Positions 3 through 15,695 of a stretch of 64,000 nt of DNA are shown piece after piece; position 1 is the stretch's first letter, and every line of letters starts with the position of its first letter. A program made the position numbers and the translations under genes. Below the pieces are notes generated by a model that was not told where the DNA came from, made no database searches, and was given only the letters and a program-made list of their open reading frames with translations. The stretch lies in the NCBI RefSeq assembly GCF_003194605.1, contig NZ_QHKY01000002.1:124001-188000 (forward strand), read 5' to 3'. Source of the DNA: Nocardioides gilvus. Lineage in GTDB: Bacteria; Actinomycetota; Actinomycetes; Propionibacteriales; Nocardioidaceae.

Positions 3-2369
3 GTGGTGGCGACCCGGGACCGCTGGCTCGTCGTCGGCCTCCTGGACACCCCGGGCCCCGGACTGCTCCTGCTGGATCTCCTGGGTGGCGGCGACCCGGT
101 GGTGCGCGACTGGTCGGCGTGGGTGCCGGACTTCCGGCCCGTCGAGGCGTGTCGACGCCCTGACGGTGGACTCCTCGTGCTCGACGCCCTGCCCGGACGC
201 GCCGAGCCGACGCGGATCTGGCCGCTGGACTCCCGTGCCGACCCCGAGCTGCTGATCGCGACCGAGGTCGAGGCACCGGTCTTCGATCGCTGTGCCGAAC
301 TGCCCCCTGATGAGAGTGAAGAAGGCGACACCGGGAGCGACGAGGTCGAGGAACCAGCCGTGGTCGGCCTCCCCGTGCCGTGGGTGTTGCCCCTGCAACG
401 GGCGGTCTCGGTGGTGGCCCTGGACGATGCCTCCTACCTGGTGCTCGACCTGGCGTCTCGTCAGGTGGTGCGATTCGAGGGCGAAGCCCGTGCCGGGCAC
501 CTCGACCTCGACATCGCCCTGGCCGGCAGGCTCACCGACCCCACGGCGGACCCGGCGGTCCGGGGCCACGACATCGCGGTCGTGCGGGACACGGCAGGGC
601 GATCCATCCTCTTCGTCAGCGACGCCGGTGGCGACGAGGTCTTCACCTTCGACGTCGACGACGACTTCGCTCCTCTGGCGGAGCACTTCCCCATGCGGCG
701 CCACCACGGCCGAGGGCTGGTCAGTGACGGGGAGTCGGTCTGGTTCGACACTGCGCGGCGGTGGCACCCGCTGGTCACCCGAGGTCGGTCGCGCCACCGC
801 TCCTGGGGCACGGTGGTGACCTCGGAGTTCGACGGTCATGAACGAGGCTGCCGGTGGCACCGCGTGCTGATCGACGGACGCCTCCCGAGCAGCACGTCGC
901 TGCGGGTCGAGACCCGGGCCGCCGACGACTTCGAGGCCCTGGCCGGGATGCCGTGGCGCCTGGAGCCGACGCCGTACCGGCGACGGGACTCCCGCGACCC
1001 CGGTGACTCCAGTGACTTCGGGGACCGTGTTGACCCCGAGGCCCCCGGGACCTGGGAGACGCTCGTCCAGCACACCGACGGACGCTTCTGCCAGTTGCGG
1101 GTCACCCTGGAGAGTGCCGGGGGAGCGACCCCGGAGATCGCCGCCCTGCGGCTGGTGGCGCCCCGCTTCTCCTACCTGCACGCGTACCTGCCGCAGGTCT
1201 ACGCCCAGGAGGACGCGCCCACCCGCTTCCTGGAGCGCTACTTGGCCAACCCCGAGGGACTGCTGAGCGACCTGGAAGGACGGATCGCCGACGTCGACCT
1301 CCTCTTCGATGCCCGGACCAGCCCGGCGCGGTACCTCGACTGGCTCAACTCCTGGCTGGGATCGGTCTTCGACTCCGACCTCGACGAGCGTCGGCGGCGA
1401 CTCTTCCTGACCCACGCCACCCGGCTCTTCGCCCGACGCGGGACCCCCGGCGGTCTGGTGGCCATGCTGCGTCTGGTGTTGGACGAGTGCCCGGAGGCGG
1501 CCTTCGACGATGTCGCCGACGACCCGACCTTCATCGTGCGAATTGCCGAGCGGTACCTGAGTCGGTCGGTCACCATTCCGTTGCCCGGAGGGCCCACGGA
1601 GACGCGGGTCGAAGGGCCCGACGAAGTCGCGGCCACCGACCGCTGGGTGCCAGGACTGGGCAGCAGCGAGCTGCACCAACGTTTCCGCGAGGCGCTGGTG
1701 GCTCGACATGGTCCCGACTGGAGCAGCACGGCGATCGGGGTGCCGGACTGGCTGCGCGGGCGGACACCGGACGAAGTGGAGATCAGCCCCTTGACACCGG
1801 TGGCCCCCGACGCGAAGGCCGACTGGGTCCGCTTCCTCGGTGGCCAACTCGGTCTGCGTACGGTCTCGCTGACCGATGCCCACCTGCCGCTGTGGCGTCG
1901 GTTCCTGCTGCAACGCCACGAGCGGATCGAACGACTCGTCTCGGCCCACCAGATGGTGCCGGCGCCTTCCTCCTTCGACGCGGTCGGCTGGCCGGATCGT
2001 CTGCCGGCCTTCGGCCCGGGACTGGAGGACTGGACCGCGATGGTCTCCCTGGTGGTGCCGATCGCCGAGTCCGCCCACCGCTTCTCGGTGCTGCTGCCCG
2101 TCGACCTGGAGACACCCGAGGGCGAGCAGTTGCGCCTCCTCGAACGCGCTCGCCGGGTGGTCGAACAGGAGAAGCCCGCGCACACCGTCTTCGACGTACG
2201 CCCTTACTGGGCTGCCTTCCAACTCGGCGACGCCCGTCTCGGGGTCGACACCCGGCTCGGTGCCGGTGCGCGGCGAGCCGCCCTGGTCCTCAACCGCAGC
2301 CGCCTGACCCAGGCGGGGCTGGCTCCACCCACCACCCACACCGCGTCCTGCGGATGTGACCACGACTGA
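3..2369 (+). CDS. Phage tail protein I-like baseplate component of an eCIS (5' end probably cut off)
   Basis: The frame is open to the window edge, so the real start may lie upstream; GTG at 3 is only the first possible start. Residues 1 to about 380 are strand-rich with blocks such as GGLLVLDALPG and SYLVLDLASRQVVRF, suggesting a beta-propeller-like region. Residues about 385-520 (FSYLHAYLPQVYAQED, then FLERYLANPEGLLSDLEGRI, then LDWLNSWLG and RRGTPGGL) match the phage tail protein I-type domain known from contractile tails and eCIS baseplates. The frame is followed at once by further eCIS-type genes ending in an AAA+ ATPase and a DUF4157 protein, which supports a baseplate role. The fold of the N-terminal half is inferred. 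Little doubt about coding; the family call is by motif only. Confidence 0.8.
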   Translation: MVATRDRWLVVGLLDTPGPGLLLLDLLGGGDPVVRDWSAWVPDFRPVEACRRPDGGLLVLDALPGRAEPTRIWPLDSRADPELLIATEVEAPVFDRCAELPPDESEEGDTGSDEVEEPAVVGLPVPWVLPLQRAVSVVALDDASYLVLDLASRQVVRFEGEARAGHLDLDIALAGRLTDPTADPAVRGHDIAVVRDTAGRSILFVSDAGGDEVFTFDVDDDFAPLAEHFPMRRHHGRGLVSDGESVWFDTARRWHPLVTRGRSRHRSWGTVVTSEFDGHERGCRWHRVLIDGRLPSSTSLRVETRAADDFEALAGMPWRLEPTPYRRRDSRDPGDSSDFGDRVDPEAPGTWETLVQHTDGRFCQLRVTLESAGGATPEIAALRLVAPRFSYLHAYLPQVYAQEDAPTRFLERYLANPEGLLSDLEGRIADVDLLFDARTSPARYLDWLNSWLGSVFDSDLDERRRRLFLTHATRLFARRGTPGGLVAMLRLVLDECPEAAFDDVADDPTFIVRIAERYLSRSVTIPLPGGPTETRVEGPDEVAATDRWVPGLGSSELHQRFREALVARHGPDWSSTAIGVPDWLRGRTPDEVEISPLTPVAPDAKADWVRFLGGQLGLRTVSLTDAHLPLWRRFLLQRHERIERLVSAHQMVPAPSSFDAVGWPDRLPAFGPGLEDWTAMVSLVVPIAESAHRFSVLLPVDLETPEGEQLRLLERARRVVEQEKPAHTVFDVRPYWAAFQLGDARLGVDTRLGAGARRAALVLNRSRLTQAGLAPPTTHTASCGCDHD

Positions 2370-2403
2370 TGCACCCACGCAGGTGGGAGGAAGGGGAGCG
2401 ACG

Positions 2404-4020
2404 ATGACCGTCTTCGCGCCGTCGCACGAAATGAGCGAACTCGATCCGGACAAGCGGGTCCGCTACTCGTTGGGCATGATCGTCGGTGACGACGAGCTGC
2501 GACAGGACCAGCGTTACCTGATGGCCAGGGACGAACGGCACCAGCGGGCCCTCCACGGGTGGGGGGTCGTCGCCGGGTTGGAGCTCGTGATCGCGGACGA
2601 GGCGCACGTGGAGGTGCATCCCGGTGCTGCCCTCGACGCCCAGGGGCGGTGGATCGGCATCGACGTCACCCAGTGCGCCGACCTCCTTCCGTGGCTGGCG
2701 GCCCACCGTGAGGAGTTGCCGGCGCTCCCGGCAGACGTCCCCGTCTGGATCACACTCTGCTACGACGAGTGCGCGACCGACCTGATCCCCGTGCCGAGTG
2801 GACCGTGCCGGACCCTCGACAACTCGGTCCAGCCCTCCCGGGTCAAGGACTCCTTCCAGCTGGGATTCACCTTGGAGGAGCCTCCGGTGCGTGGGGACCT
2901 GGACGAGTTCCCCGAGGCCGGAGTAATGACAGTGCTCCTCGACGAGGACGCCGACCTGGCGACCAAGCGCAGCGCCCTGTCCGACTTCGTCTCCTCCAGG
3001 GGCGACCCGGGTGGCTTCGCGAACCCCACGCTCGACGCCCTGGAGCCCGGATGTGTGGTCCTCGGTCGCGTCGACGTGCCCTTGGCTGTCGTCGAGGAGG
3101 AGCTGGTCCTGGGCAGCGACGTGGAGGCGTCGTGGCTGACCTTCTCCGACCGGCCCCTGGTGCTCTCGACCCAGTTCATCCAGGAGTGGCTGCTGCGGGT
3201 GGAGGGCGGAGGGACTGTCGTCATTCCACCCGACCCGGATCCGTTCTTCACCCTGGACGAACTGACCGACGTCAACGCCCCGACCGCTCGAGAGGGCAAC
3301 GTGGTGATCGGCACGGTGCGCCCCGACGAGGTCGGGACCGGGATCGGTACCGACGCCCCACCCCCCAACCCACGATGGGAGGAACGCCTGCTCAACCTCG
3401 ATCTGCTGGCGGACGTGCAGATCCCGGCCAACTTCGGGGCAACTTCCTCGGACATCGGGCTGGTCCTGAAGTTCGACGGTCGGGTGTGGCGCCCCCAGAC
3501 CGACGACGTGGGCACAGTGACACCGGAGATCCAGCCTCACGTCCGCTGTCGCCCGACGCCGTACGCCATCGTGGCGGGAGGAGTTCTGGACCTGCACCTC
3601 AACTCCGACGGGTTCCTCGAAGAGGTCACCCAGCGCACCAGGTACGGGGGGCTCGAGGCCGAGATTCTCGCCCGGGGGCGGGTCGGCAGCCTGCTGCACC
3701 TGCGTTTCCACGGCTACCGGGAGACCCGCGAGGCCTTTCGGGAGCTCTTCGGACGACAGTTCGTCGTGAAGCTGACACCGGAGGCCGGGGGTGCCCTGCT
3801 GCGGACCCAGGTGGTGCACATGGGTGACGAGGGAGTCGTCGTCTTCGTCGGACAACTCCTCGAGCGCGACGTCGAGGAGTACCGGAACATGGTGGTCGAG
3901 CACCTCGGTGACGACGTGCTCGCGATTTCCGCCCTGCACGTCGAGATCTCTGCCTTCGACGACCGCGAGGCCGGCAACGAGACGCTCGACAAGGTCCCCC
4001 AACTCACCGAGGACCTGTGA
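2404..4020 (+). CDS. eCIS-associated structural protein with 'GVVAGLEL' domain
   Basis: This is a 538-residue protein of unknown exact role. ATG 2404 was chosen because a strong purine-rich ribosome site (GGAGGAAGGGG, near 2387-2397) precedes it; an in-frame GTG at 2356 would overlap the previous gene by 14 bases. The N-terminus has the pattern RYSLGMIVGDDELRQDQRY, HQRALHGWGVVAGLEL and VHPGAALDAQGRWIGI. I associate this pattern with proteins encoded near phage-tail-like and eCIS baseplate genes, and the next gene has a diverged copy. No signal peptide or membrane segment is visible. Its stop overlaps the next start (TGATG), so translation is probably coupled. A baseplate-periphery or cargo-attachment role is inference. 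Confidence 0.75.
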   Translation: MTVFAPSHEMSELDPDKRVRYSLGMIVGDDELRQDQRYLMARDERHQRALHGWGVVAGLELVIADEAHVEVHPGAALDAQGRWIGIDVTQCADLLPWLAAHREELPALPADVPVWITLCYDECATDLIPVPSGPCRTLDNSVQPSRVKDSFQLGFTLEEPPVRGDLDEFPEAGVMTVLLDEDADLATKRSALSDFVSSRGDPGGFANPTLDALEPGCVVLGRVDVPLAVVEEELVLGSDVEASWLTFSDRPLVLSTQFIQEWLLRVEGGGTVVIPPDPDPFFTLDELTDVNAPTAREGNVVIGTVRPDEVGTGIGTDAPPPNPRWEERLLNLDLLADVQIPANFGATSSDIGLVLKFDGRVWRPQTDDVGTVTPEIQPHVRCRPTPYAIVAGGVLDLHLNSDGFLEEVTQRTRYGGLEAEILARGRVGSLLHLRFHGYRETREAFRELFGRQFVVKLTPEAGGALLRTQVVHMGDEGVVVFVGQLLERDVEEYRNMVVEHLGDDVLAISALHVEISAFDDREAGNETLDKVPQLTEDL

Positions 4021-5759
4021 TGAGCACGCCCTTGGACCAGATCGACGTGACCGGCGGGATCTCGGTCCCGAACTTCTTCAACGGCCGGATCCTGAGTGCC
4101 GAGGACATGCGCCAGTGGCAGGGCGCCGAACGCAGTCACCGGCGCCTGCTCGGCCGGTCGATCGGCCCGGGAGTGGCTGCAGGTCTGCACGTGACTCGAC
4201 TCAGCGCCACGACCGTCCGGGTGAGCTCCGGGGTGGGGATCAACCGTCTGGGGGAGACGATCGAACTCCCCCTCGACACCGAGGTGCGCCTGGCCGGGAC
4301 GGCTGCCGTGGCCGAACCGGCGACGTCCTCGGGCCCTGTCTTTGCCGACTGCGGGGGGACCAGTGGTGGCTCCAACGCCTCGAACGCCTTCCTGCTCACA
4401 GTGCGTCCCGACAGTGTGGAGGCGGGGTCGGCACCGGCAGATCCCTACCTCACCGGACAGTCCTGTGGACCCGGCCACGTGACCGAGGGCGTGCGATTCC
4501 GCCGGATCGGCATCGACCCGACCTACCTGGCCGCGGTGCTGGACCTGTCCGGGACGGCCAACCTGGGTAGCGCCTCAGCCCTCTCTCGCAACATCGTCAG
4601 TCACCTCTTCCTGGGGTCCAGACGCTGGGAGATCTTCGGTGACGTGACCACGGCCTCCGGCACCCAGCCCGATCTCGAGGCCGCCCAGGACCTGGTCGGG
4701 TTGCAGGGCTGCGAGGTCCCACTCGCGCTGTTCTACCTGCAGGGCGGCACGGTGACCCAGCTCGACGAGTGGTCCGTACGGCGACCCTGTCGTCCCGCCG
4801 GTGACGACGCGACCGGACTGGGCGGCTTCGTCTCCTCGATGCGGGCGGCGGCGGGGGAGGCCACCTTCAGACAGTTCCAGGCGCAACTCACCGACCTCCT
4901 CGGGGGCAGCTCCAGCGACCCTCCCCGGGCGGGAGTCCACTTCCGTCATCTCCCGGCCGCCGGCATCCTTCCCGGGACAGCGATCGGGTCTCCCGCCACC
5001 TTGGCTGCTTTCCGCACCTCGGCGACCCTGCCCTTCTTCCAGGCACTGTCGTCAGTGGCGTGGAGACGCTCGGAGCGCACGATCGACAGCGCCCGGGTCG
5101 AGTCGGTGATCCGGGACGGGTGCCGTCATGCTCCGGTGGACCTCGTCAGCACCCGAGGTCTGCCGCTCACCGTGGTGCCGGTCCGGGAGTCGTTGTCGTC
5201 CGGCCGCCCCTACGCCGTCTTCGTCTCCGCCACTCACCCCTATCGGGACCGCATCGACCTGGACGGGGTGATCGACCGGATCGCCGCGCTGGAGCCGGAG
5301 ATCGACGACGAGCCGTACGTGACCGTGGTCAGCCAGGATGTCCGGCCGGTCCGCAGCTTCGACGGACATGCAGTCCGCGTCCAGTTCCGGATCACCACCA
5401 ACACGGCGGGGGAGTACGTGCTCGATCCGGTGGCCTCCTCGCGGCTGGCCAACCGGGCCGATCCGGAGGCGACCGTGGCCTCCGGTGAGGCGGTCCAGTC
5501 CCTGCCCGAGGGGAGCACCGTGGTGGAGGTCAGGTACTTCATCGCCTTGACCGAGACGAACGGCGGCCTCCTCCGGGAGAAGAGGCGTCCGCTCTCCGAC
5601 GACACGGAGAGAGGCAGGAGTGACGAAGAGTTCGAGGCGTCCGAAGGTGACCAGCCCTCGAAGTCGTTGAAGCTTCCCTACCTCCTGGGTCTCGAGGTCG
5701 CCCTGGAGAGCGATCCCGAGGTCAGGGCGCGCGCCAGCGTGGGGTACCGGCCCTCGTGA
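4020..5759 (+). CDS. eCIS-associated protein, second copy of the GVV/AGL-type domain
   Basis: This is a 579-residue protein without a recognised catalytic motif. The ATG at 4020 overlaps the upstream TGA (TGATG); the GTG at 4017 is a less likely start. Residues about 10-95 contain VPNFFNGRILSAEDMRQWQ, RRLLGRSIGPGVAAGLHV and SGVGINRLGETIEL, which line up with the start of the preceding protein (GMIVGDDELRQDQRY, GWGVVAGLEL, PGAALDAQGRWIGI). The two genes are therefore diverged tandem paralogues over the first 100 residues. The remainder is mixed alpha/beta and soluble. The last base pairs overlap the next start (GTGA). Position in the operon suggests a structural part of the injection particle; this is inference. 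Confidence 0.72.
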   Translation: MSTPLDQIDVTGGISVPNFFNGRILSAEDMRQWQGAERSHRRLLGRSIGPGVAAGLHVTRLSATTVRVSSGVGINRLGETIELPLDTEVRLAGTAAVAEPATSSGPVFADCGGTSGGSNASNAFLLTVRPDSVEAGSAPADPYLTGQSCGPGHVTEGVRFRRIGIDPTYLAAVLDLSGTANLGSASALSRNIVSHLFLGSRRWEIFGDVTTASGTQPDLEAAQDLVGLQGCEVPLALFYLQGGTVTQLDEWSVRRPCRPAGDDATGLGGFVSSMRAAAGEATFRQFQAQLTDLLGGSSSDPPRAGVHFRHLPAAGILPGTAIGSPATLAAFRTSATLPFFQALSSVAWRRSERTIDSARVESVIRDGCRHAPVDLVSTRGLPLTVVPVRESLSSGRPYAVFVSATHPYRDRIDLDGVIDRIAALEPEIDDEPYVTVVSQDVRPVRSFDGHAVRVQFRITTNTAGEYVLDPVASSRLANRADPEATVASGEAVQSLPEGSTVVEVRYFIALTETNGGLLREKRRPLSDDTERGRSDEEFEASEGDQPSKSLKLPYLLGLEVALESDPEVRARASVGYRPS

Positions 5760-7354
5760 TCGTGGACGATCGTATTGCCCGACTTGCTCTGGTCGACTGG
5801 CCCGAGGGGAAGGCCGTGCCCCAGATCCAGGAGTTGCGCCCTCCTGCCCTGGACGACCGCGCCGTGCTCCTGGTCCGCCGGCTCAGTGTGGTCGCCGATC
5901 CCGACGACGTGCCCGCAGCCGTGGCAGCGGAGGTGCAGGCGGGTGCTGCGCGGGCCGTACGCCCGATCCGCGGTGGCCTGGCCCTCGAGGCCGAGGCAGT
6001 GCTCTTCGACGACGAGAGCCAGATGCTGGCCTGCTACCTGCTGGCTGCCTCGGGTCACACCCTGGAGCACCACTGGTGCTGGCCGCTGCTGCGGACCACT
6101 CTGCCGCCTCCTTCGCTGCGCGCGGTGGTGAGTGATCCGAGCACTCCGGTGCTGGGGGTGTTGGCGGCGCTGATCGGCTGGGGTCGGTTGGTCGACGTGG
6201 TCGGCGAACTCGACCGAGCGACCCGGTGGCGGGTGCTGACGGCCATCGCCGAGCGCCACGACCTCTGGCTGCGCGAGGTCGCAGCGGTCGACCCGACGAC
6301 AGGTGACCCAGGGGGTGGGCGAGGTTCGAATGGGTGGTCACCAGAGCAGTCACCCGCCGAGGAGGGGGTCGGCCTCCGCCTCGGGGGAGTGTTGTCCGCG
6401 CGGGGCGCCAAGGGCGACCTCGGCGCCGCGTCGACGCGGACGACCTCGCATGACTCCCCGGCGGACTGGGCGCCCTCCGGGCGGAGGGTCGGGTCCGGTG
6501 GCCTCCCGGGTTGGCACGTCGGGCGCGAGGGCTCCGCGCGTGCCCTGTGCCACCTGCCTGCCGGGGAGGACTTCCCCACGGGCCTCGCCCGGTTGGTCGC
6601 GACACTGCTGGGGCGACGGTCCGGGGTCGGGGACGGTCATCGGACCCTGATTCATCCCGGGGCTCGTGGGCTGGAGGACGTGGCCCAGCGGCTGTCGCCG
6701 CACACGGTGCCCGTCGCCCTGAACAGCCCGCGGGACGAAGTGGAGTCCCCTGCCGGGAGAGTGCCCGATTCGCGTACGCCTTCATCGGCGGCGACCGGGC
6801 GGGAGACGTACGCACTGGATCACCCTGGTCCTGGAGAGGGCATCGAGCACGGGGTCCGCACCAACCTCGGCGGGGTGCTGTACCTGGTCAACCTCCTACG
6901 CCGTTTCGACCTGCTTGAATTCGGCCTCGTCGACGCAGACGCCTGGGACGTGGTCGACGGACTGGCGCGGGCCGCCCTGTCGTGGTCGCAGGGCGAGGGC
7001 GGCGCCGCTCCCGATCGGGATGGCCTGACGTGGGACGACCCGATCTGGGACCTGCTCTCTGCCCTGGCCGGTCGCGAGCCCGGTGAGGCTCCCGAGCCCG
7101 TCGTCGTCCAGTGCTGTCGCGAGGCACTGAGGGCCCTCCTGCCCGCGTTGGCCTTCGCCGACGACGAGCCGGGGTGGGGGACCTTGTTGGCCGTTCCGGG
7201 TCGCGTCACGAGCGACGCGACCCACGTCGAACTCTTCACCGCCTTGACCCAGGTGCACCTGTCGATCCGCAGACGGGCGCTGGACAGCGACCCCGGGTGG
7301 GTGCCGGCACTGGGCCGAGTGGTGCTCTTCCACTTCACCGGAGGGCAGCGATGA
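5756..7354 (+). CDS. eCIS operon protein with possible tape-measure-like C-terminus and a disordered middle
   Basis: This is a 532-residue protein starting at GTG 5756, overlapping the previous stop by four bases. Residues 1 to about 180 look folded and contain VEEL-free alpha/beta segments with a conserved-looking ETYALD-type end further on. Residues about 180-340 are rich in Gly, Ser, Arg and Pro and look disordered. Residues about 365-390 (VRTNLGGVLYLVNLLRRFDL) resemble the hydrophobic 'NAGLVLL..P.L..LF' signature of the contractile injection system tape-measure family, but the match is weak. It sits directly before the AAA+ ATPase, where Afp-type loci carry their tape-measure gene (Afp14 before Afp15). 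It could equally be an unrelated accessory protein. Confidence 0.6.
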   Translation: MIVDDRIARLALVDWPEGKAVPQIQELRPPALDDRAVLLVRRLSVVADPDDVPAAVAAEVQAGAARAVRPIRGGLALEAEAVLFDDESQMLACYLLAASGHTLEHHWCWPLLRTTLPPPSLRAVVSDPSTPVLGVLAALIGWGRLVDVVGELDRATRWRVLTAIAERHDLWLREVAAVDPTTGDPGGGRGSNGWSPEQSPAEEGVGLRLGGVLSARGAKGDLGAASTRTTSHDSPADWAPSGRRVGSGGLPGWHVGREGSARALCHLPAGEDFPTGLARLVATLLGRRSGVGDGHRTLIHPGARGLEDVAQRLSPHTVPVALNSPRDEVESPAGRVPDSRTPSSAATGRETYALDHPGPGEGIEHGVRTNLGGVLYLVNLLRRFDLLEFGLVDADAWDVVDGLARAALSWSQGEGGAAPDRDGLTWDDPIWDLLSALAGREPGEAPEPVVVQCCREALRALLPALAFADDEPGWGTLLAVPGRVTSDATHVELFTALTQVHLSIRRRALDSDPGWVPALGRVVLFHFTGGQR

Positions 7355-9426
7355 GTCCCCGTCGGGGCACCACCACCCAGGAGCACGCACGCGCCCTCAC
7401 CCTGGCGGGGGTCACGGCACTGCTCAACCTGGCCGAGACCACCCTGCCCGGCGGGGTCGACGAGCTCGTTGAACGCCAACCCTTCGTCGCAGGCTACGTC
7501 GACGAGCTCGCCCGGGTGCTGCCCGACCCGATCAGCTGGGAAGCAGCCGTGGTTTGGTGGCACCGACATCTCGCCGACCTCGAACGAGCAGCCCCGGCGG
7601 CACGACGCGGATCGGTGCCACCGCTCCCGTTGACCCTGGTCCCCGGCCTGGCCGAGGTCCGGGACCGGATCGCCGTGGGGCTGGTGGCGTTGCCCGAGGA
7701 GGACGAGCGCTTCACCCAGGTCGTCAGGGAGTTGCAGGGCGTCGCTCCCGCCGAGGGCATGCCCACCGCGGTGGTGGTGGGTGCCCTCGAACGACCGGGC
7801 GAGCGCGTCGTGGCGCGCCTGCTGGATCGGCTCACCCGTGACCAGGTGCTCATCGAGGTCCCCGGTGTCGGGCAGGCACGTCGAGTGGCGCCGTCATGGT
7901 GGGCGAGCGTCCGCGACGACGAGGCCTGGGCCGACTTCGCCGCGGCGACACCGGCAGGTGATCCGAGCCGACTGAGGCACTGGCACCGATCGCGTCGTGA
8001 GGAGCTGGTCCGACTGCTGCGGATGCTGGAGGAGGAGCAACTCGACACCGTGGTGATCCGCCAGGTGCCGGGGGCCGACGGCGCCGCCAGCGTCGCCGCC
8101 GCCAGCACCCGGCGTCTGCTCTGGCGTACGCCCGACGAGCTTCTCCGGGGGCCGGGGCTCGTGCTGGCGGCCTCGCTCGACGCGATCCCGGCGGTCTCGC
8201 TCAGCCTGGTGGCGGGGGAGGAGATCGACGTGCCGCGCCCACCGGGCTACTCCGGCCCACTGGTCGTCCTCACCGGAGTGGCCGGGGGGCTGCGCACCAC
8301 GGAGAAGGAACGCTCCGCCTCGCTCACCCTCCACCGAGGCGATGCAGACGAACGACACAGGCTGTGGAAGGCCCTCTTCCCGCGCGCAGGAGACGTCCGC
8401 CTCACCGAGCTCGCCGCGGCCTGTGTCGTCCCCGACGGGCACCTGCGCCGCCTCGCGGCAGACGCAACGGTGATCGCACGTCTGGACGGGCGACGGCTCC
8501 CGGGCGTGGACGACGTACGAGCGGCCAGTCGTCGGCTCTGCGACCACGTCCTGGAGACCCGCGCGACCCGGATCGACAACGAGGACCTGAGCTGGGACGA
8601 CGTCGTGACCAGTGCTCCTGTGCGCACGGACCTGGAGATGCTGGAGAGTCGGTGCCGGCTGCGCGAGACCCTGGCCGTCGGTGACCGCGGGGTCGGAGGC
8701 GCTGGCGTACGCGCCCTGCTCACCGGTGCCAGTGGGTGCGGCAAGACCCTGGCGGCCAGGACGCTGGCCTCCGTGCTCGGTCGCAGCATCTACCGCGTCG
8801 ACCTGGCCGCTGTCTTCGACAAGTACGTCGGGGTCACCGAGAAGATCCTCGACGGCCTGCTGACCGAGGCCGAGCAGCTCGACGCGGTCCTGCTGCTGGA
8901 CGAGGGCGACACCTTCCTGGGCAGCCGCACCGACGTGCGCTCGGCCAACGACCGGTACGCCAACCTCGAGACCAACTTCCTGCTCCAACGCCTGGAGACC
9001 TACTCCGGGATCATCGTGGTCACCACCAACTCCCCGGACCGGATCGACACGGCCTTCAACCGCCGGATGGACGCCACGATCCTCTTCGGCAAGCCGCGCG
9101 CCGAGGCACGGGCCGAGATCTGGTCACTGCACCTGCCCGACGGCCACCAGGTTGGGCCCGAAGAGGTGGCTCTCATCGGGCAGCGTCACCGCCTCACCGG
9201 CGGCCAGATCCGCAATGCCGTCCAGTACGCCCGACTGCTCAGCGCCCGTGACGAGCGGCCGCTCGATGCCCGCACCGTGCGCGATGCGATTGCCGCCGAG
9301 TACCGCAAGGCCGGCGCCATGCCGCTCGGCCTCTCCCCGGCGCCGCCCGACTCGGCGGTGGCGCTGGACACGTACGTGCGCTCCGTGGCGGAGGCCGCCC
9401 CGCGCCGGGCAGGGAGACGGAAGTGA
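7351..9426 (+). CDS. AAA+ ATPase of the eCIS locus (Afp15/Cis15-like)
   Basis: This is a 691-residue protein. ATG 7351 overlaps the previous stop (ATGA) and has GGAGGG at 7340-7345; longer upstream starts would run through the preceding gene. The C-terminal third is an AAA+ module: Walker A GASGCGKT at about residues 459-466, Walker B AVLLLDEGD at about 512-520, a sensor-1-like VVTTNSPDRID and an arginine-finger-like AFNRRMD. The N-terminal 440 residues have no motif I recognise and may form helical or winged-helix adaptor domains. One such ATPase is encoded in nearly all eCIS loci and is thought to act in particle assembly or cargo loading in the cytoplasm. The next start overlaps by four bases (GTGA). 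Confidence 0.88.
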   Translation: MSPRRGTTTQEHARALTLAGVTALLNLAETTLPGGVDELVERQPFVAGYVDELARVLPDPISWEAAVVWWHRHLADLERAAPAARRGSVPPLPLTLVPGLAEVRDRIAVGLVALPEEDERFTQVVRELQGVAPAEGMPTAVVVGALERPGERVVARLLDRLTRDQVLIEVPGVGQARRVAPSWWASVRDDEAWADFAAATPAGDPSRLRHWHRSRREELVRLLRMLEEEQLDTVVIRQVPGADGAASVAAASTRRLLWRTPDELLRGPGLVLAASLDAIPAVSLSLVAGEEIDVPRPPGYSGPLVVLTGVAGGLRTTEKERSASLTLHRGDADERHRLWKALFPRAGDVRLTELAAACVVPDGHLRRLAADATVIARLDGRRLPGVDDVRAASRRLCDHVLETRATRIDNEDLSWDDVVTSAPVRTDLEMLESRCRLRETLAVGDRGVGGAGVRALLTGASGCGKTLAARTLASVLGRSIYRVDLAAVFDKYVGVTEKILDGLLTEAEQLDAVLLLDEGDTFLGSRTDVRSANDRYANLETNFLLQRLETYSGIIVVTTNSPDRIDTAFNRRMDATILFGKPRAEARAEIWSLHLPDGHQVGPEEVALIGQRHRLTGGQIRNAVQYARLLSARDERPLDARTVRDAIAAEYRKAGAMPLGLSPAPPDSAVALDTYVRSVAEAAPRRAGRRK

Positions 9427-12400
9427 CCACGGACCGGGCGCGCAGCAGGGCCACGTCAGGGTCAGAGTCGACCGCGCACCCCCGCTCGCACCGGCCTCCG
9501 GTGGTGGGTCACCGCGCAGGCGGGTCCGTCCCCCCGGCGCTCCAGTTCAAGGAGGCGGCGGTGGGGTCCTCCGGGGACGGGTTCGAGAAGGAGGCAGACC
9601 AGGCCGCCGAGCACGTCGTCCAGGGGCGTACGGCTCCTGCGTTGTCGGGAGTGACCCCGCAGGCCCTGCAGCGGATGGCCGAGGTGCCTGCGGTCTCGCC
9701 CGACGAGTTGGCCGAAGGCGGGGGACTGACCCAGGCCCTCTTCGATGAGGAGGTGACGGAGGAGGAACCGGTGCAGGCCAAGGCAGCGGGACGTTCGGGC
9801 TCGCCGTCCACCGTCGACCTGCCGGCGACCGGCGCGGGGCGAGCGTTGGCGCCCGCCCCCCGGGCCGCGCTCGAGTCCGGCTTCGGCACGGACCTGGGGG
9901 CCGTACGCGTCCACGACGACTCGACCGCGCGCAACGCTGCCGACCGGATGGGTGCCAAGGCCTTCACCCACGGCACCGACATCTCCCTGGGTTCGGGGCA
10001 GTCGGCCGACGACGTGGGCCTGCTGGCGCACGAGGCGGCCCACGTGGTGCAGCAGGCCGGCGGCTCGGGAGCAGTGGCCCAGCGCAACGAGACCACCGAC
10101 GCAGCACCGGCACCGGCACCGGCCGCCACCGTGACTGACAAGACCTGGCCGGACGGAGCCGCGATCAACACAGCGACCACCCCACGCCGGGTGACTCTGG
10201 GCAGCCTGCAGGTGCCGGCGACGAAGCGGGACCAGACGTCCAACCCGCTACCCACCGACGTCCCGGTCGGCAGGGATCGCCACACCACCCAGTCGACGAA
10301 GTGGGCACAGCAGCTGCGGGCAGCCACCCGGACGGCTGCGGAGACCGTGTTGGCGAAACCCGAGGTGATGGCCACCAAGGACGAGAACGACCAGTTCTTC
10401 CTGGTCAACCCGGTGGCAACGAATCACCCGGTGGTCGTCAGCACGGATTCGCTGGCGACCCTGGCGCTGCGGCCGACCTGGGACAAGAGCGGGGTCCCGA
10501 CCCGATTCCACGTCGACCACCGGGTCGAGTACCAACTCGGCGGCGCCGATGAGCCGGAGAACTACTGGCTGCTGGAGGAACAGGCCAACATGAGCTCCGG
10601 CTCCTCGATCGCGAACCTCATCGCCGAGGGCATCAACAACGTCTTCACCCGGGCTCGCGGCGAGGGTGTGGCCAACGTGCCGGCTGATGTCGCCGCGGCC
10701 CGCGGTGGACAGTGGAAGTTCTCGGTCGCCTCGATCTCGACCTCGCCGCTGCCCGTCGCGGGCCGTGAGACCAGCAACTGGACCAAGGACGAGGTGGAGC
10801 AGGGAGACCCGGTCCTCGATCACCTGCGGGCGATGACCACCACGGAGATGCAACAAGCAGGCGGGACCGCCGATGAGCTGGTGCTCTTCCTGGGGCCTGA
10901 AGGTGGCGCCCGGGCGCCCGTCGCATGGGGAGCTGCCGGAGCCACCGGGGTGAAGGAGATGCCGGGCTGGTGGTTCCACTTGGGCACCTCTGCACCGGGG
11001 GCGACCAACAACAACTTCCGGGTGGAGCGCATCCGCTGGTCAGCAACGGCCGACGGGGCCGTGGAGGGGAAGCTCTTCAAGGCGAACCGCCGCAACAAGG
11101 GCGTGATCGCCGAGGTGGCCAAGTCGATCCCGATCAAGGTTCGCCCGCAGATCCCGTGGTCGGGCTTCCTGGACAAGCAGCGCTTCCTCAACGAGGCCCG
11201 GACCGAGCTCTCGTTCACCGGCCTGAGCCCGATCGAGCTCGAGGAGATGGATCTCGACTCGGCGCGCGGGTTGGTGGCGCGGGGCCGGCTCCTCCCCACC
11301 GTCCCACTCATCTCCGAGGCCGAGGTCGACGTGGTCATCGAGGGCGACAACGTCTACCTCTCGAAGGTCTTCACCACCGACGACTTCTCCTTCCCGGGCC
11401 CGATCGAGGTCGGCACCTGCAGCCTCGAGCTGCGGTTCGGCACCCAGGGGTTCGAGATCCTCGGCGAGGCGGGCTTCCAGGTCCAGGGCCTCGGCACCGG
11501 TCGAGTCTTCGCCCAGGCTGGCGCCAACACCGAGGAGGTCTCCTTCGCCCTGGGTGGCGAGTTCAACTTCCTCTCCGACCTCTTCGACCCCGCCCGCGTC
11601 GAGCTCTGGTACCGCGACGGCGAGTTCGGGGGCCGGGGCACGCTCGGCATTCCCGAGGGGCGGGTCAACGGGCTCAGATCGGCCAACGCCACGGTGGAGT
11701 GGGCCGGTGGACAGATCACGGCGAACGGCACCTTCGCCACCGAGATCCCGGGCGTCGAGTCGGGGACCCTGGCGTTCGCGTACCGCCCCGACGGCACCGT
11801 GGAGCTCGGCGGCACACTCAACCTGGGTTCACAGGTGCCCGGCATCTCCAGCGGCAGCGTCGAGGCCCAACTCGTACGCAATCCGGAGGGTGGGTGGAAG
11901 GTCTTCGGTCGCATCCGCGCCGTGCCCGCGATCCCCGGGGTGGCGAGCGAGATCACCGGCACCTACGACGACGGCGCTATCCAGATGGAGGCGAGCGTCG
12001 CCTACGAACGCGGGATGGCCGCGGGACAGTTCACCGTCGGCGTCTCCAACCGTCCCCTCGACTCGGCCGGACAACCCGCCGGCGACCCGGGGCCCGACCT
12101 CACCGCGTACGGCGGCGGGCAGGTCGCCCTGACGCTGGCACCGTGGTTGCGGGCCACCGCAGGGCTGCGGCTGCTGCCGTCGGGCGAGATCGAGGTCAGT
12201 GGTGAGATCGCGTTGCCGTCGACCCTGGAGGTCTTCGCGCAGCGCTCGGTGGAGCGTGAGCTCTTCCGGATCGGGCTCGACATCCCGATCGTCGGGTTGG
12301 CCGTGGCGGGGCAACGAGTGGGGATCTTCGCGACCATCGCCGGAGCCGCGCAGCTGCGGGCCTACTTCGGACCGGCCGAGTTGCGCGAGGTGCGCCTCGG

Positions 12401-12911
12401 AGTGGTGTGGAACCCCGACCGCCAGGAGGAGACCACCGTCACCGGGCACGCCGCGCTGCACCTGCCGGCCGGCGCCGGGGTCCGACTGAGCGTCTCTGCG
12501 GCGCTCGGGGCCGGGATCCCGCTGGTCTCGGCCCGCCTGGGCCTGGAGATCGGAGGCCAACTGGGCATCGAGGCGGTGATCGGGGCAAGCCTCGACGTGG
12601 CCTGGACCCCGACCACCGGGCTGGTCCTGGAGACCGTGGCCGAGGCCTACGCCGAGCCGGTCTTCCGCTTCGACATCACCGGCTTCGCCAGCGTCGACCT
12701 CGACCTGTTGCTGCGCACCATCAATCTCTACGAGCAGCGCTGGGAGCTGGCCGCATTCGAGTACGGCTCCGGGCTGCGCCTGGGGATGCGGTTGCCGATC
12801 ACCTACCGCGAGGGAGAGCCATTCGAACCATCCCTCTCCGACGTCGAGTTCGAAGTCCCTGACATCGACCCGGGCCAGTTGCTCTCGGGTCTCGTCGACC
12901 GTCTCACCTGA
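9423..12911 (+). CDS. DUF4157-domain eCIS cargo candidate with HNH-like motif and strand-rich C-terminus
   Basis: This is a 1162-residue protein, start GTG 9423. Residues 1-145 are polar and probably disordered. Residues about 147-215 are a DUF4157 domain: FGTDLGAVRVHDD, AFTHGTDISLG, then the zinc-protease-like LAHEAAHVVQQ with H203, E204 and H207. A Pro/Ala linker follows (about 222-235). Residues 363-393 read like an HNH nuclease: HVDHR, then a GG, N380, LLEEQAN and a final Gly. From about residue 690 the protein is strand-rich, with roughly 31-residue repeats ending in PGVESG, PGISSG and PGVASE. DUF4157 is the best known marker of eCIS-associated toxins. That this is the cargo of the upstream particle, and that the HNH-like part is active, are inferences. 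No signal peptide is seen. Confidence 0.85.
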   Translation: MTTDRARSRATSGSESTAHPRSHRPPVVGHRAGGSVPPALQFKEAAVGSSGDGFEKEADQAAEHVVQGRTAPALSGVTPQALQRMAEVPAVSPDELAEGGGLTQALFDEEVTEEEPVQAKAAGRSGSPSTVDLPATGAGRALAPAPRAALESGFGTDLGAVRVHDDSTARNAADRMGAKAFTHGTDISLGSGQSADDVGLLAHEAAHVVQQAGGSGAVAQRNETTDAAPAPAPAATVTDKTWPDGAAINTATTPRRVTLGSLQVPATKRDQTSNPLPTDVPVGRDRHTTQSTKWAQQLRAATRTAAETVLAKPEVMATKDENDQFFLVNPVATNHPVVVSTDSLATLALRPTWDKSGVPTRFHVDHRVEYQLGGADEPENYWLLEEQANMSSGSSIANLIAEGINNVFTRARGEGVANVPADVAAARGGQWKFSVASISTSPLPVAGRETSNWTKDEVEQGDPVLDHLRAMTTTEMQQAGGTADELVLFLGPEGGARAPVAWGAAGATGVKEMPGWWFHLGTSAPGATNNNFRVERIRWSATADGAVEGKLFKANRRNKGVIAEVAKSIPIKVRPQIPWSGFLDKQRFLNEARTELSFTGLSPIELEEMDLDSARGLVARGRLLPTVPLISEAEVDVVIEGDNVYLSKVFTTDDFSFPGPIEVGTCSLELRFGTQGFEILGEAGFQVQGLGTGRVFAQAGANTEEVSFALGGEFNFLSDLFDPARVELWYRDGEFGGRGTLGIPEGRVNGLRSANATVEWAGGQITANGTFATEIPGVESGTLAFAYRPDGTVELGGTLNLGSQVPGISSGSVEAQLVRNPEGGWKVFGRIRAVPAIPGVASEITGTYDDGAIQMEASVAYERGMAAGQFTVGVSNRPLDSAGQPAGDPGPDLTAYGGGQVALTLAPWLRATAGLRLLPSGEIEVSGEIALPSTLEVFAQRSVERELFRIGLDIPIVGLAVAGQRVGIFATIAGAAQLRAYFGPAELREVRLGVVWNPDRQEETTVTGHAALHLPAGAGVRLSVSAALGAGIPLVSARLGLEIGGQLGIEAVIGASLDVAWTPTTGLVLETVAEAYAEPVFRFDITGFASVDLDLLLRTINLYEQRWELAAFEYGSGLRLGMRLPITYREGEPFEPSLSDVEFEVPDIDPGQLLSGLVDRLT

Positions 12912-12925
12912 CCCGGGAGGTCACC

Positions 12926-13972
12926 ATGAAGTCCAGCACCGGACCCCACGCGATCGCCGCCCGACGCGCGGCCCGAGGCGCCGCCGAGTGTCCCGACCAA
13001 CCCGGCGGCGAGGACGACCGGACCACTCTGCTGCGGCGTGCGGCGCTGCTCCACCTCGACGGTGACTGGGACGGCGCCCAGAAGGCGTACGAAGCGGTGC
13101 TGGCCGACGATCCCGGCCATGCCGTGGCGCTCAACAACCTTGGCCTGGTACGCGCCCAACGACGTGACCCCACGGGGGCGCTGGCGGCCTACGAGGCGAT
13201 CGGTCCCGACGAGACCCTCACCCCGACAGCGCTGCTCAACAAGGCCAACGCCCACCTGGCCCTCTCCCACCCGGACCGGGCGTTGCCCCTGCTCCAGCGC
13301 GCCGTGAGCCTCGACCCCGGCTCGAGCGCCTGGGTGGCGTTGGGTCAGTGCCACCTTGTCACCGGGGACCTGGCTGCCGCGGAAGCTGCCCTGCGCCAGG
13401 CGTACGAGCGCCTGCCCGCGCGCGCCGACGTGCACCGTTCGTACGCCTCCTGCCTGGCTGCTCGTGGAGCGGTGACCGAAGCCGCGGATCTCCTGTCGGA
13501 GGCGGTCCGGCTGGATCCTCACGAGGAGTCAGGATGGCGCCAGTTCGGAGCAGTGCTGCTGACGATGCGGGACCTCGGCTCGGCTGCCCGAGCGACAGCC
13601 GAGGCTGTGCGTCTGGCGCCCGACTCCGTGACGTCGCTGCGGCAGATGGCCGTGGTCCTGGTGGCACTTGGGCGCCCGAGCGAGGCGGCTGAGCAGTTGG
13701 ACCGGGCCCTCGCAGCGGAACGCCAGTGTGACGTCCTGGTTGACCGGGCCGTGCTCCACCTGGCGTGTGGCGAGCCGGACGGCGCGCTGTCGCTGCTCGA
13801 CGAGGCCTGCAGCGGTGCGGGGCACCCGCGAGCGGAGTTGTACCGGGCGTACGCCCTGCTGGCTGCCGACCGGATCGAAGAAGGTCGGCGCCAGCTGGAG
13901 GCGGTGACGGTGGAGCCGTACGCAACGCAGGCGCGCGAGGCGCTGGAGCGGGTCCAGCCAGAGCCCTCCTGA
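12926..13972 (+). CDS. Tetratricopeptide-repeat protein at the end of the eCIS operon
   Basis: This is a 348-residue protein starting at ATG 12926, preceded by GGGAGG at 12914-12919 and only 14 bases after the DUF4157 gene. About eight TPR units run from residue 35 to the end; typical blocks are GDWDGAQKAYEAVLADDPGH, HPDRALPLLQRAVSLDPGS and GRPSEAAEQLDRALAAERQ. There is no signal peptide or membrane segment, so it should be cytosolic. TPR proteins bind partner peptides. Sitting last in the eCIS operon, directly after the cargo candidate, it could be a cargo chaperone or a regulator of loading; this is inference. The first 30 residues are charged and probably disordered. Confidence 0.85.
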   Translation: MKSSTGPHAIAARRAARGAAECPDQPGGEDDRTTLLRRAALLHLDGDWDGAQKAYEAVLADDPGHAVALNNLGLVRAQRRDPTGALAAYEAIGPDETLTPTALLNKANAHLALSHPDRALPLLQRAVSLDPGSSAWVALGQCHLVTGDLAAAEAALRQAYERLPARADVHRSYASCLAARGAVTEAADLLSEAVRLDPHEESGWRQFGAVLLTMRDLGSAARATAEAVRLAPDSVTSLRQMAVVLVALGRPSEAAEQLDRALAAERQCDVLVDRAVLHLACGEPDGALSLLDEACSGAGHPRAELYRAYALLAADRIEEGRRQLEAVTVEPYATQAREALERVQPEPS

Positions 13973-14054: not shown

Positions 14055-15695
14055 TCACCCTTCGGAGTTGAGGGCGCGCGCGGCCTGTTCGGCTGCTGCG
14101 TGGAAGGGGTGGAGGACGAGGTCCACGTGCCCGGAGTCGAGTTCGCGGGTGAAGGAGGCGGCCTCGGCATTGGTGTGTGCGGTCACCGCGAACCTGCCCG
14201 CGAACTGCCAGCGTCGCAGTGCGGTGGCCAGGATCCGATTGGTCGTCACTCGGGGGATCGTGCTGACAACCCAGGGGGTGGAGGAGAGCGGCAGGCTGGC
14301 GGGGAACTCCGGGTCGTCGGCGTCACCGAAGACGAGGTGCACGCGTGCGGCTGCCTCCTCGGTGGGCAGGTCGAGGCGCGCGTACGGGTCCCAGTCGACG
14401 ACGAGGACCCGCATGCCTTCGTCGGCGAGGCGTCGTACGATGTGATGGCCGTAGCGCCCGTAGCCGTAGACGATCACGTCGACCGGTTCGTCGCAGTGCT
14501 GCGTGGGATCCAGTGGCCTCCGCCGCTCGAACGGACGCAGGAACGGTGCCAGCCTTTCGTAGATCTGGTGCGAGTAGAGGATCAGGTAGGTCGAGGTGCC
14601 GATCGTGATGATTCCGACGAGGGTGACCAGCCCGACGGCGTCGTTCTCGATGTGACCGAGACTGAGGCCCAGCGCCACCAGGATCAGGGAGAACTCGCTG
14701 ATCTGGGCGACTGCGAGGCCCGCCAGGAAAGAGACCCGTTTCGGGTAGCCCATGAGCCCCATCAGCACCAGGACGATCAGCGGGTTGCCGACCAGGACGA
14801 AGACTGAGAGGACGAGGGCCGCAGGAATCTGCGAGCCGATCTCCGCGAAGTCGAACTGGGAGCCGAGCTCGATGAAGAAGAAGAGCAGGAGAAAGTCCCG
14901 CAGGCCGGTCAGCGAGGAGGCCAACGACTCGCGATAGCGCGTCGAGGCGAGGGCGAAACCCGCGAGGAACGCGCCGACCTCGATCGAGAAACCCATCCAG
15001 TCGCCCAATGCTGCGACCGAGGTGGCCCACGCCACCGCGAAGACGACCAGCAGCTCCTGGGATCCCGCCACGAAGCCCATCAGACGGGGCAGCACCCAGC
15101 GCATCAGGATGGCCAGCCCCACAACCAGGCACACTCCTTGGGCCACCACGAGCATGATCTGCACCCCTGCAGAGCCTTCGTGCTCCCCGCCGAACGAGGA
15201 GAGCACGATCATCAGCAGCACGACCACGATGTCCTGCACGATGAGGAACCCCAGTGCGATCCTGCCGTGCAGTTCATCGAGCTCACGTTTGTCGGAGAGC
15301 AGTTTGACGATGATGATCGTCGAGGAGAAGGTGAGGGCGATCGCGACGTAGAGGGCAGTGACCGGGTCCATGCCCAGTGCCAGCGCGAGCCCGTATCCCA
15401 CCACTGAGGTGAAGACCACCTGACCCAGTCCGGTGATCAGGGCGACCCGGCCCGTGGTGCGGACCAGGTGGAGGTCGAGTTTCAGCCCCACCAGGAAGAG
15501 CAGGACCGCGATGCCCATCTCGGCGAAGAGTTCCAGCGGTTCGCTCTCCTCCACCCACCCGAGCACCGAGGGCCCCACGAGCACACCGACGGCGATGAAG
15601 GCGACGATCAGCGGCTGACGAACCCGATTGGCGATCATGCCGACCGCCGCGGCGACCGCTAGCACTGCGGCCGTGCTCTGGAAGGTGCTCTCCAT
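14055..15695 (-). CDS. Kef/CPA2-type monovalent cation:proton antiporter with TrkA-N domain
   Basis: This is a 546-residue inner-membrane protein of the CPA2 family. Residues 1 to about 385 form roughly 12 hydrophobic segments, with family motifs such as FLVGLKLDLHLV, ALTFSSTIIIVKLLSDK and EVGAFLAGFALAST. Residues about 400-520 are a TrkA-N (RCK) domain with the nucleotide-binding glycines of VYGYGRYGHHIV and an acidic strand end VVDWDP. The family exchanges K+ or Na+ for H+ and is gated by nucleotide binding at the RCK domain. The gene converges with the eCIS operon across 82 bases and is not related to it. The start at 15695 has a weak GGTGAG upstream. Confidence 0.92.
   Translation of the reverse strand: MESTFQSTAAVLAVAAAVGMIANRVRQPLIVAFIAVGVLVGPSVLGWVEESEPLELFAEMGIAVLLFLVGLKLDLHLVRTTGRVALITGLGQVVFTSVVGYGLALALGMDPVTALYVAIALTFSSTIIIVKLLSDKRELDELHGRIALGFLIVQDIVVVLLMIVLSSFGGEHEGSAGVQIMLVVAQGVCLVVGLAILMRWVLPRLMGFVAGSQELLVVFAVAWATSVAALGDWMGFSIEVGAFLAGFALASTRYRESLASSLTGLRDFLLLFFFIELGSQFDFAEIGSQIPAALVLSVFVLVGNPLIVLVLMGLMGYPKRVSFLAGLAVAQISEFSLILVALGLSLGHIENDAVGLVTLVGIITIGTSTYLILYSHQIYERLAPFLRPFERRRPLDPTQHCDEPVDVIVYGYGRYGHHIVRRLADEGMRVLVVDWDPYARLDLPTEEAAARVHLVFGDADDPEFPASLPLSSTPWVVSTIPRVTTNRILATALRRWQFAGRFAVTAHTNAEAASFTRELDSGHVDLVLHPFHAAAEQAARALNSEG

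Follow-up and report, generated by a model that had tools for sequence, protein, structure and literature searches.

This report concerns a stretch of 64,000 nucleotides from the actinobacterium Nocardioides gilvus (the window; bases 124001-188000 of contig C2, NZ_QHKY01000002.1, in a genome of 3.33 Mb and 7 contigs) and a locus that extends across its left edge. The locus is a complete extracellular contractile injection system (eCIS), a known kind of machine, and the window holds its 3' half. The last two genes, both on the + strand, encode a cargo protein of 1162 amino acids (aa) (9423..12911; alternative start 9501) and a TPR protein of 348 aa (12926..13972). We assign a probability of about 0.6 to the reading that the cargo is a DUF4157-tagged predicted HNH-type nuclease with a conserved, predicted beta-meander module and that the TPR partner probably maintains it in a folded or inactive state up to loading. 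The two genes together represent a new variant among these systems. Coordinates follow the numbering of the window, negative values lying to its left, where genes were delimited with our own gene caller and family scans. Published papers are cited from excerpts (in addition to those named below, PMC8894136, PMC8651086, PMC12210884 and PMC12923769).

Domain order of the cargo and its predicted nuclease core

Three regions are arranged along the cargo protein, all encoded on the + strand: a DUF4157 (eCIS_core) domain with the motif HEAAH (residues 144-214, 9852..10064; PF13699, 75.2 bits), an HNH-type core of the HNN kind with D365, H366, N380 and N389 (residues 362-413, 10506..10661) and a conserved beta-module (residues 601-1162, 11223..12908) that is nearly all-beta in the structural model. 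Residues 1-42 have a predicted local distance difference test score (pLDDT) below 50, taken as a proxy for a disordered N-terminus. An earlier note on this DNA, made from the letters alone, had recognized the DUF4157 protein, as the eCIS_core match bears out, and had missed the nuclease core and the beta-module in the same polypeptide.

With residues 215-1162 as the query, a homolog search returned 57 proteins at E <= 0.001, and 53 of these were aligned with the window protein (54 rows); P0003 and P0024 (short), P0056 (frame-damaged by eye) and P0057 (differently built) were left out. P0056 was also considered as a fusion of beta-module and TPR; it looks out-of-frame by eye and was not used. 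The cargo protein occurs in Chromatiaceae, Rhodobacteraceae, Halomonas, Anaerolinea, Desulfatitalea, Planctomycetota and Thermoanaerobaculia (groups as given in the records). The three HExxH residues of the DUF4157 domain are kept in 51 of the 54 rows, the other 3 having gaps at these positions. Among the core residues, H366, N380 and N389 are present in every row, D365 in 53 and E369 in 52; the distance from N380 to N389 is 9 in 54/54 rows and that from H366 to N380 is 14 in 21/54 and 13-26 in the rest. Spacings of 14 and 9 are also those between H840, N854 and N863 of SpCas9. A strand-strand-helix arrangement (strands 362-366 and 381-385, helix 386-413 in the model of the cargo) appears in both models, that of residues 241-599 having a pLDDT of 92.7 and a predicted template modelling score (pTM) of 0.87.

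A profile of 14 cores, hand-picked among 43 diverse ones, gave a Cas9 as its best chain in the PDB. The alignment pairs D-H, N and N but is not significant (E 0.7); the matched stretch is presumably the HNH domain. Cas9 differs from the cargo core in being RNA-guided. Six of these 14 match Pfam HNH (best E 0.0061, the window core having 0.027), and 2 match Endonuclea_NS_2 (best E 0.0087). In one homolog, P0026, Endonuclea_NS_2 occupies the nuclease slot. The motif was found by pattern in 13 of the 17 loci that were named (L numbers), and L025, which by eye has E in place of D, brings the count to 14/17. No nuclease or DUF4157 match was obtained in L032 or L033, and L036 starts inside the beta-module, at a contig end.

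Several results weigh against a nuclease. The window core scores 15.1 bits, below the Pfam HNH cut-off of 21.4; just 2 of 40 full-length members match Pfam HNH; and the fold search with the nuclease region was weak, returning a single nuclease row and, for the second part of the region, rows of lipocalin-like proteins. The full cargo profile gave two weak, unrelated matches in the PDB. The core is taken here as HNH-type (HNN), a predicted nuclease.

Conservation along the protein bears on a different interpretation, in which the DUF4157-beta protein would be a structural or targeting part, be it a fibre, a plug or a tape measure, its HNN core being an inactive scaffold. Over the 54 rows, mean column identity reaches 0.49-0.75 per 40-residue block of the beta-module, as against 0.55 at the nuclease motif and about 0.3 in the rest of the nuclease region; that the module is more conserved than the nuclease region is unusual for a toxin. 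We consider a structural part improbable, as every row has H, N and N amid variable surroundings, the order of nuclease and beta-module is swapped in a Cereibacter protein (see below) and P0026 has a nuclease of another subclass.

As a predicted nuclease cargo, the protein can be compared with several known effectors. HNH effectors of type VI secretion systems, such as the MIX-domain protein VPA1263, are likewise nuclease cargo of a contractile system, in that case a DNase (PMC9602870). The DUF4157 toxins associated with eCIS resemble the window cargo in that DUF4157 is N-terminal to the toxin and the gene lies towards the 3' end of its locus (PMC8213781, PMC11297309). They are described as having the toxin at the C-terminus (PMC8213781), whereas the window cargo has its conserved part there and is followed by a TPR partner. 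Tme of Streptomyces davawensis, which belongs to an actinobacterial contractile injection system (CIS), also combines DUF4157 with a nuclease domain, but is described as tape-measure-like, with predicted transmembrane helices and a C-terminal nuclease of the EndA type (PMC11126660). The window cargo has its HNH-type core in the middle of the protein, at 362-413 of 1162, and the beta-module at the C-terminus.

The beta-module and the TPR partner

Fold searches with the full cargo returned generic beta-meander matches (barrels, LptD, ushers), and a search of the beta-module for internal repeats gave weak periodicities with no clear unit. Sixteen of 25 hand-picked strands differ by at least 3 hydropathy units between their faces, a count made with no control that is suggestive only. 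In the genomes sampled, the module was found in at least 2 of 396 of the phylum and at least 1 of 391 of the order, the own genome included in both.

The terminal gene of an eCIS on a Cereibacter plasmid (L081:14011-17820; P0178, annotated as hypothetical) has the two parts in reverse, with the beta-module first and the nuclease last. Its beta-module matches that of the window at E 2e-21 (pairwise), and its nuclease is 44% identical to that of P0026 over 71 aa (E 4e-10). Thus P0178 and the window cargo have in common the beta-module, the HNN stretch and the position as terminal eCIS gene, and differ in domain order and in that P0178 has no DUF4157 match and its locus stretch no TPR match. In a Thermoanaerobaculia locus (L034:6051-18581) three DUF4157 genes are consecutive, and the outer two have, by eye, other His-Me-finger-like stretches near their ends.

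A wider and rather speculative proposal, to which we give low odds, is that these proteins are modular eCIS warheads, in which a His-Me-finger nuclease and an amphipathic beta-module of about 560 aa may be joined in either order, the beta-module would serve as a built-in membrane translocator, a dedicated TPR protein would act as a chaperone or immunity check, and the whole would form a rare cassette crossing phyla.

The TPR protein, named as such in the earlier note, matches TPR families and has a link to the DUF4157 cargo that the note had missed. In 13 of the 17 named loci, the gene immediately 3' of the cargo gene encodes a homolog of the window's TPR protein; it shares the strand of the cargo gene, and its stop lies 815-1052 bases past that of the cargo. 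No TPR homolog was found in L029 (where the contig ends 632 bases on), L033, L034 or L035. As controls, 15 eCIS places devoid of the module were located in 12 genomes of the same order, and 13 of these places, from 11 genomes, were examined as stretches of 37-40 kb; a TPR, module or nuclease match (E <= 1e-3) was obtained in 0/13. Fisher's exact test for the linkage gives p = 2e-5, which is only a guide, given the relatedness of the loci and the origin of all controls in a single order. Among the titles and abstract openings of the open literature, supplements and subscription papers lying outside this scope, no paper linking a TPR gene to a DUF4157 cargo was found.

It is likely that the TPR partner chaperones or blocks the cargo. 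Blocking would make it a true immunity protein that occludes the nuclease active site and the system a self-protected antibacterial weapon, a possibility that we hold as tentative. The order of toxin followed by partner, adjacent in 13/17 loci, is what such a pair would have, and L033, with no TPR match, likewise has no nuclease or DUF4157 match. Conversely, L032 retains the TPR gene although neither a nuclease nor DUF4157 was matched there, and in L034 and L035 the nuclease motif is present and no TPR match was obtained. Hosts whose nuclease regions diverge also share a single TPR family, whereas rapid evolution is usual among immunity proteins. L032, with its TPR gene and no visible nuclease, slightly favours a chaperone role.

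The injection machine and its surroundings

The earlier note had placed the window at the 3' end of an eCIS locus and expected sheath, tube, spike, gp25 and baseplate J genes to the left of base 1. Family scans detected the complete gene set within about 15.2 kb on that side, on the same contig and strand, so that the sheath and tubes, whose absence from about 25 kb upstream would have spoken against an eCIS, are present; the combination of DUF4157, AAA+ ATPase and tail baseplate genes, cited there as the eCIS signature, is supported by this set.

All genes of the locus are on the + strand. It is headed by a SARP/BTAD-type regulator (-16426..-15569); SARP-like matches also occur near L023, L024, L028, L031 and, in the genomes compared (G numbers), G017, G047, G049 and G057b. 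Then come an open reading frame (ORF) of 63 aa (-15438..-15247), the Pvc16_N cap protein (-15247..-14642; 66.2 bits), an unassigned ORF (-14645..-13776), a sheath of 876 aa (-13762..-11132; Phage_sheath_1, PF04984, 67.6 bits; Phage_sheath_1C, PF17482, 42.5 bits) and a gp19-type tube (-11100..-10645; PF06841, 114.4 bits). A second sheath-like protein of 1004 aa (-10648..-7634) matches the PHROG tail sheath at 96.7 bits and Pfam at 18.6 bits, below the cut-off of 26.9, and is followed by a second gp19 tube (-7634..-7167; PF06841, 94.3 bits). Next are a CIS_tube protein (-7174..-6443; 79.6 bits), a hub (-6283..-5207) for which both matches, Phage_GPD at 23 bits (cut-off 30.1) and VgrG_rel at 103.6 (cut-off 275), are below threshold, a Phage_base_V spike (-5207..-4506; 85.4 bits), a 484-aa protein (-4443..-2989; L003:15557-17011), gp25 (-2989..-2573; 87.8 bits) and baseplate J (-2576..-381; Baseplate_J 36.4 bits, TIGR02243 231.7 bits). 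For LysM, a family that the note had suggested searching for on this side, no match was seen, including in the CIS_tube protein.

The best PDB matches of the sheath are 8bky (355 bits) and 8bl4 (347 bits), named by their depositors as phage tail sheath, and it also matches Pvc2 (153.6 bits) and Afp3 (152 bits). The long sheath and the degenerate second sheath-like protein are each followed by their own tube gene (-13762..-7167), an order identical in G017 and G045 and likewise found in G042, where a gap precedes the second tube. The 484-aa protein has 1293 homologs at E <= 0.001, no match in Pfam, NCBIfam, PHROG or PDB, and a near-invariant hydrophobic C-terminus in 40 aligned rows; it could be a part of the tip that contacts the membrane. 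With PVC, Afp, AlgoCIS and actinobacterial eCIS the locus shares the sheath, tube, hub/spike, gp25, baseplate J, Tail_P2_I, AAA+ ATPase, Pvc16 cap and terminal DUF4157; unlike them it has hub and spike as separate genes, no LysM match and the 484-aa protein between spike and gp25.

Inside the window, the seven same-strand genes with tight junctions described in the earlier note are borne out (ORFs 3-2369, 2356/2404-4020, 4017/4020-5759, 5756-7354, 7351-9426, 9423-12911 and 12926-13972). Start contexts were examined for alternative gene starts: the first and second genes overlap by 14 bases or are 34 bases apart, depending on the start chosen, and the second and third overlap by 4 bases (GTG at 4017) or 1 base (ATG at 4020). 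Overlaps of 4 bases occur between the third and fourth genes (g3 and g4), between g4 and the ATPase gene and between the latter and the cargo gene, and a gap of 14 bases precedes the TPR gene. The first gene, read by the note from base 3 as phage-tail-I-like, does match Tail_P2_I; it is truncated by the window edge, and its start lies 382 bases to the left of the window, at an ATG at -381 with GGAGGAG upstream, giving a Cis12/Tail_P2_I baseplate protein of 916 aa (-381..2369; Tail_P2_I 22 bits, cut-off 20.6; TIGR02242 65.4 bits; CIS12_fam 107.7 bits, partial and far below the NCBIfam cut-off of 860). As for the two "GVV-type" proteins that follow, one is a Cis13-like protein (2404..4020; alternative start 2356) with a partial match to NCBIfam CIS13_fam (50.9 bits, cut-off 370), no match in the PDB and relatives in matching gene order in L026, L030 and G045. 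The other, g3 (4017..5759; alternative start 4020), has no Pfam, NCBIfam or PHROG match and is a conserved eCIS protein with relatives in L020, L024, L026, L030 and G045. The conserved g4 (5756..7354), which the note took as possibly tape-measure-like and which has no Pfam, NCBIfam or PHROG match of its own, stands before the ATPase in the candidate position of the tape measure (Cis14) and has ATPase-adjacent relatives in L020, L026 and L034; the gene preceding the ATPase in the Cereibacter eCIS gives a weak CIS_TMP match (19.7 bits, cut-off 27.8). The AAA+ ATPase of the Cis15 type (7351..9426; PF00004, 75.3 bits) is as the note had it. To the right of the locus, on the opposite strand, is a cation:proton antiporter-like gene, named by eye (14055-15695).

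Since the sheath and tube match phage tail families, the locus might be thought to be the tail genes of an ordinary prophage. This candidate was rejected, and we give it almost no chance: Pvc16_N, CIS_tube and DUF4157 are all present, and the TerL_ATPase (PF03354) and portal (PF04860) families have 0 matches in the whole genome, a result to be read with the facts that they match in just 3 and 4 of 14 control genomes and that major capsid families were not searched. Moreover, the beta-module has no match among 50,697 phage records, and in viral contigs 40 stretches fit a pattern and 0 encode a relative. A plain prophage with capsid and terminase genes was the other outcome that the note had named as refuting; the terminase and portal searches gave no sign of one. 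Phage_sheath_1 and eCIS_core each have one match in the genome, both within this locus.

Among a set of relatives, baseplate J finds a match in 13 of 58 genomes, the own included; of the 36 congeners, G017 has a match (34% identity, 244 bits), G014 a weak one and the others none. It is present in 11 of the 12 genomes searched among those behind the 17 cargo loci, some matches being weak or possibly due to another eCIS. The best matches are those of Albimonas (522 bits, 45%), Mameliella (513), Thermoanaerobaculia (404 and 144, in two pieces) and Chromatiaceae (350), as compared with 288 bits for G042, 244 for G017 and 240 and 212 (two pieces) for G045. This eCIS type is therefore patchy in the genus and common to several phyla, and, judging from these comparisons, horizontal transfer is likely to lie behind the pattern. 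An AAA+ ATPase accompanies the cargo in 11 of the 17 loci and spike plus gp25 in L022 and L033; no eCIS core gene was seen in the stretches examined of L023, L029, L032 and L036. An empty site was sought through the flanking genes in 59 genomes of the genus and none could be shown, because the right-flank antiporter, rare in the genus, matches in 2/59 (E <= 1e-60) and the left-flank carbamate kinase in 41/59, both counts including the own genome.

Proposed mechanism and biological meaning

The particle, composed of sheath, tube, spike and baseplate, would assemble inside the cell, where the AAA+ ATPase and the DUF4157 domain may bring the cargo to the spike and tube. This loading step is proposed by analogy with AlgoCIS, in which DUF4157 proteins are found as cargo in the tube lumen (PMC8894135), with a small DUF4157 protein of S. 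lividans that binds another cargo and has been proposed as a link to the baseplate (PMC13277306), and with the Pvc15 ATPase, to which a supporting role in effector loading is ascribed (PMC11495950). Bound by the TPR protein, the cargo would stay folded or inactive until loading; contraction would then drive the tube and cargo into the target, the beta-module, as an amphipathic sheet, might help the nuclease to cross or sit in the membrane, and the nuclease would cut nucleic acid.

The CIS of Streptomyces coelicolor are cytoplasmic and require the membrane protein CisA (PMC12237407), and Tme, the DUF4157 nuclease of S. davawensis, has been connected with the release of DNA and the formation of spores (PMC11126660). 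If the N. gilvus machine stayed in the cytoplasm in the same way, the nuclease would act on the producer, in programmed death or DNA release; the near-invariant hydrophobic C-terminus of the 484-aa protein encoded in the locus is in keeping with such a role, which we regard as conceivable though doubtful. The cargo protein is also found in non-hyphal groups, from Chromatiaceae to Thermoanaerobaculia, which argues against a role in hyphal development. An antibacterial weapon and an internal role of the Streptomyces type both fit the locus.

For the family as a whole, the survival of producers in the face of their own antibacterial eCIS cargo and the function of DUF4157 have been stated as open questions (PMC8213781). 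The conserved carrier-like module, which accompanies nucleases in either order, and the TPR partner linked to it provide two concrete genes for experiments. Were the beta-module a translocator, this would explain how a nuclease delivered to the wrong side of a membrane may reach the nucleic acid across it.

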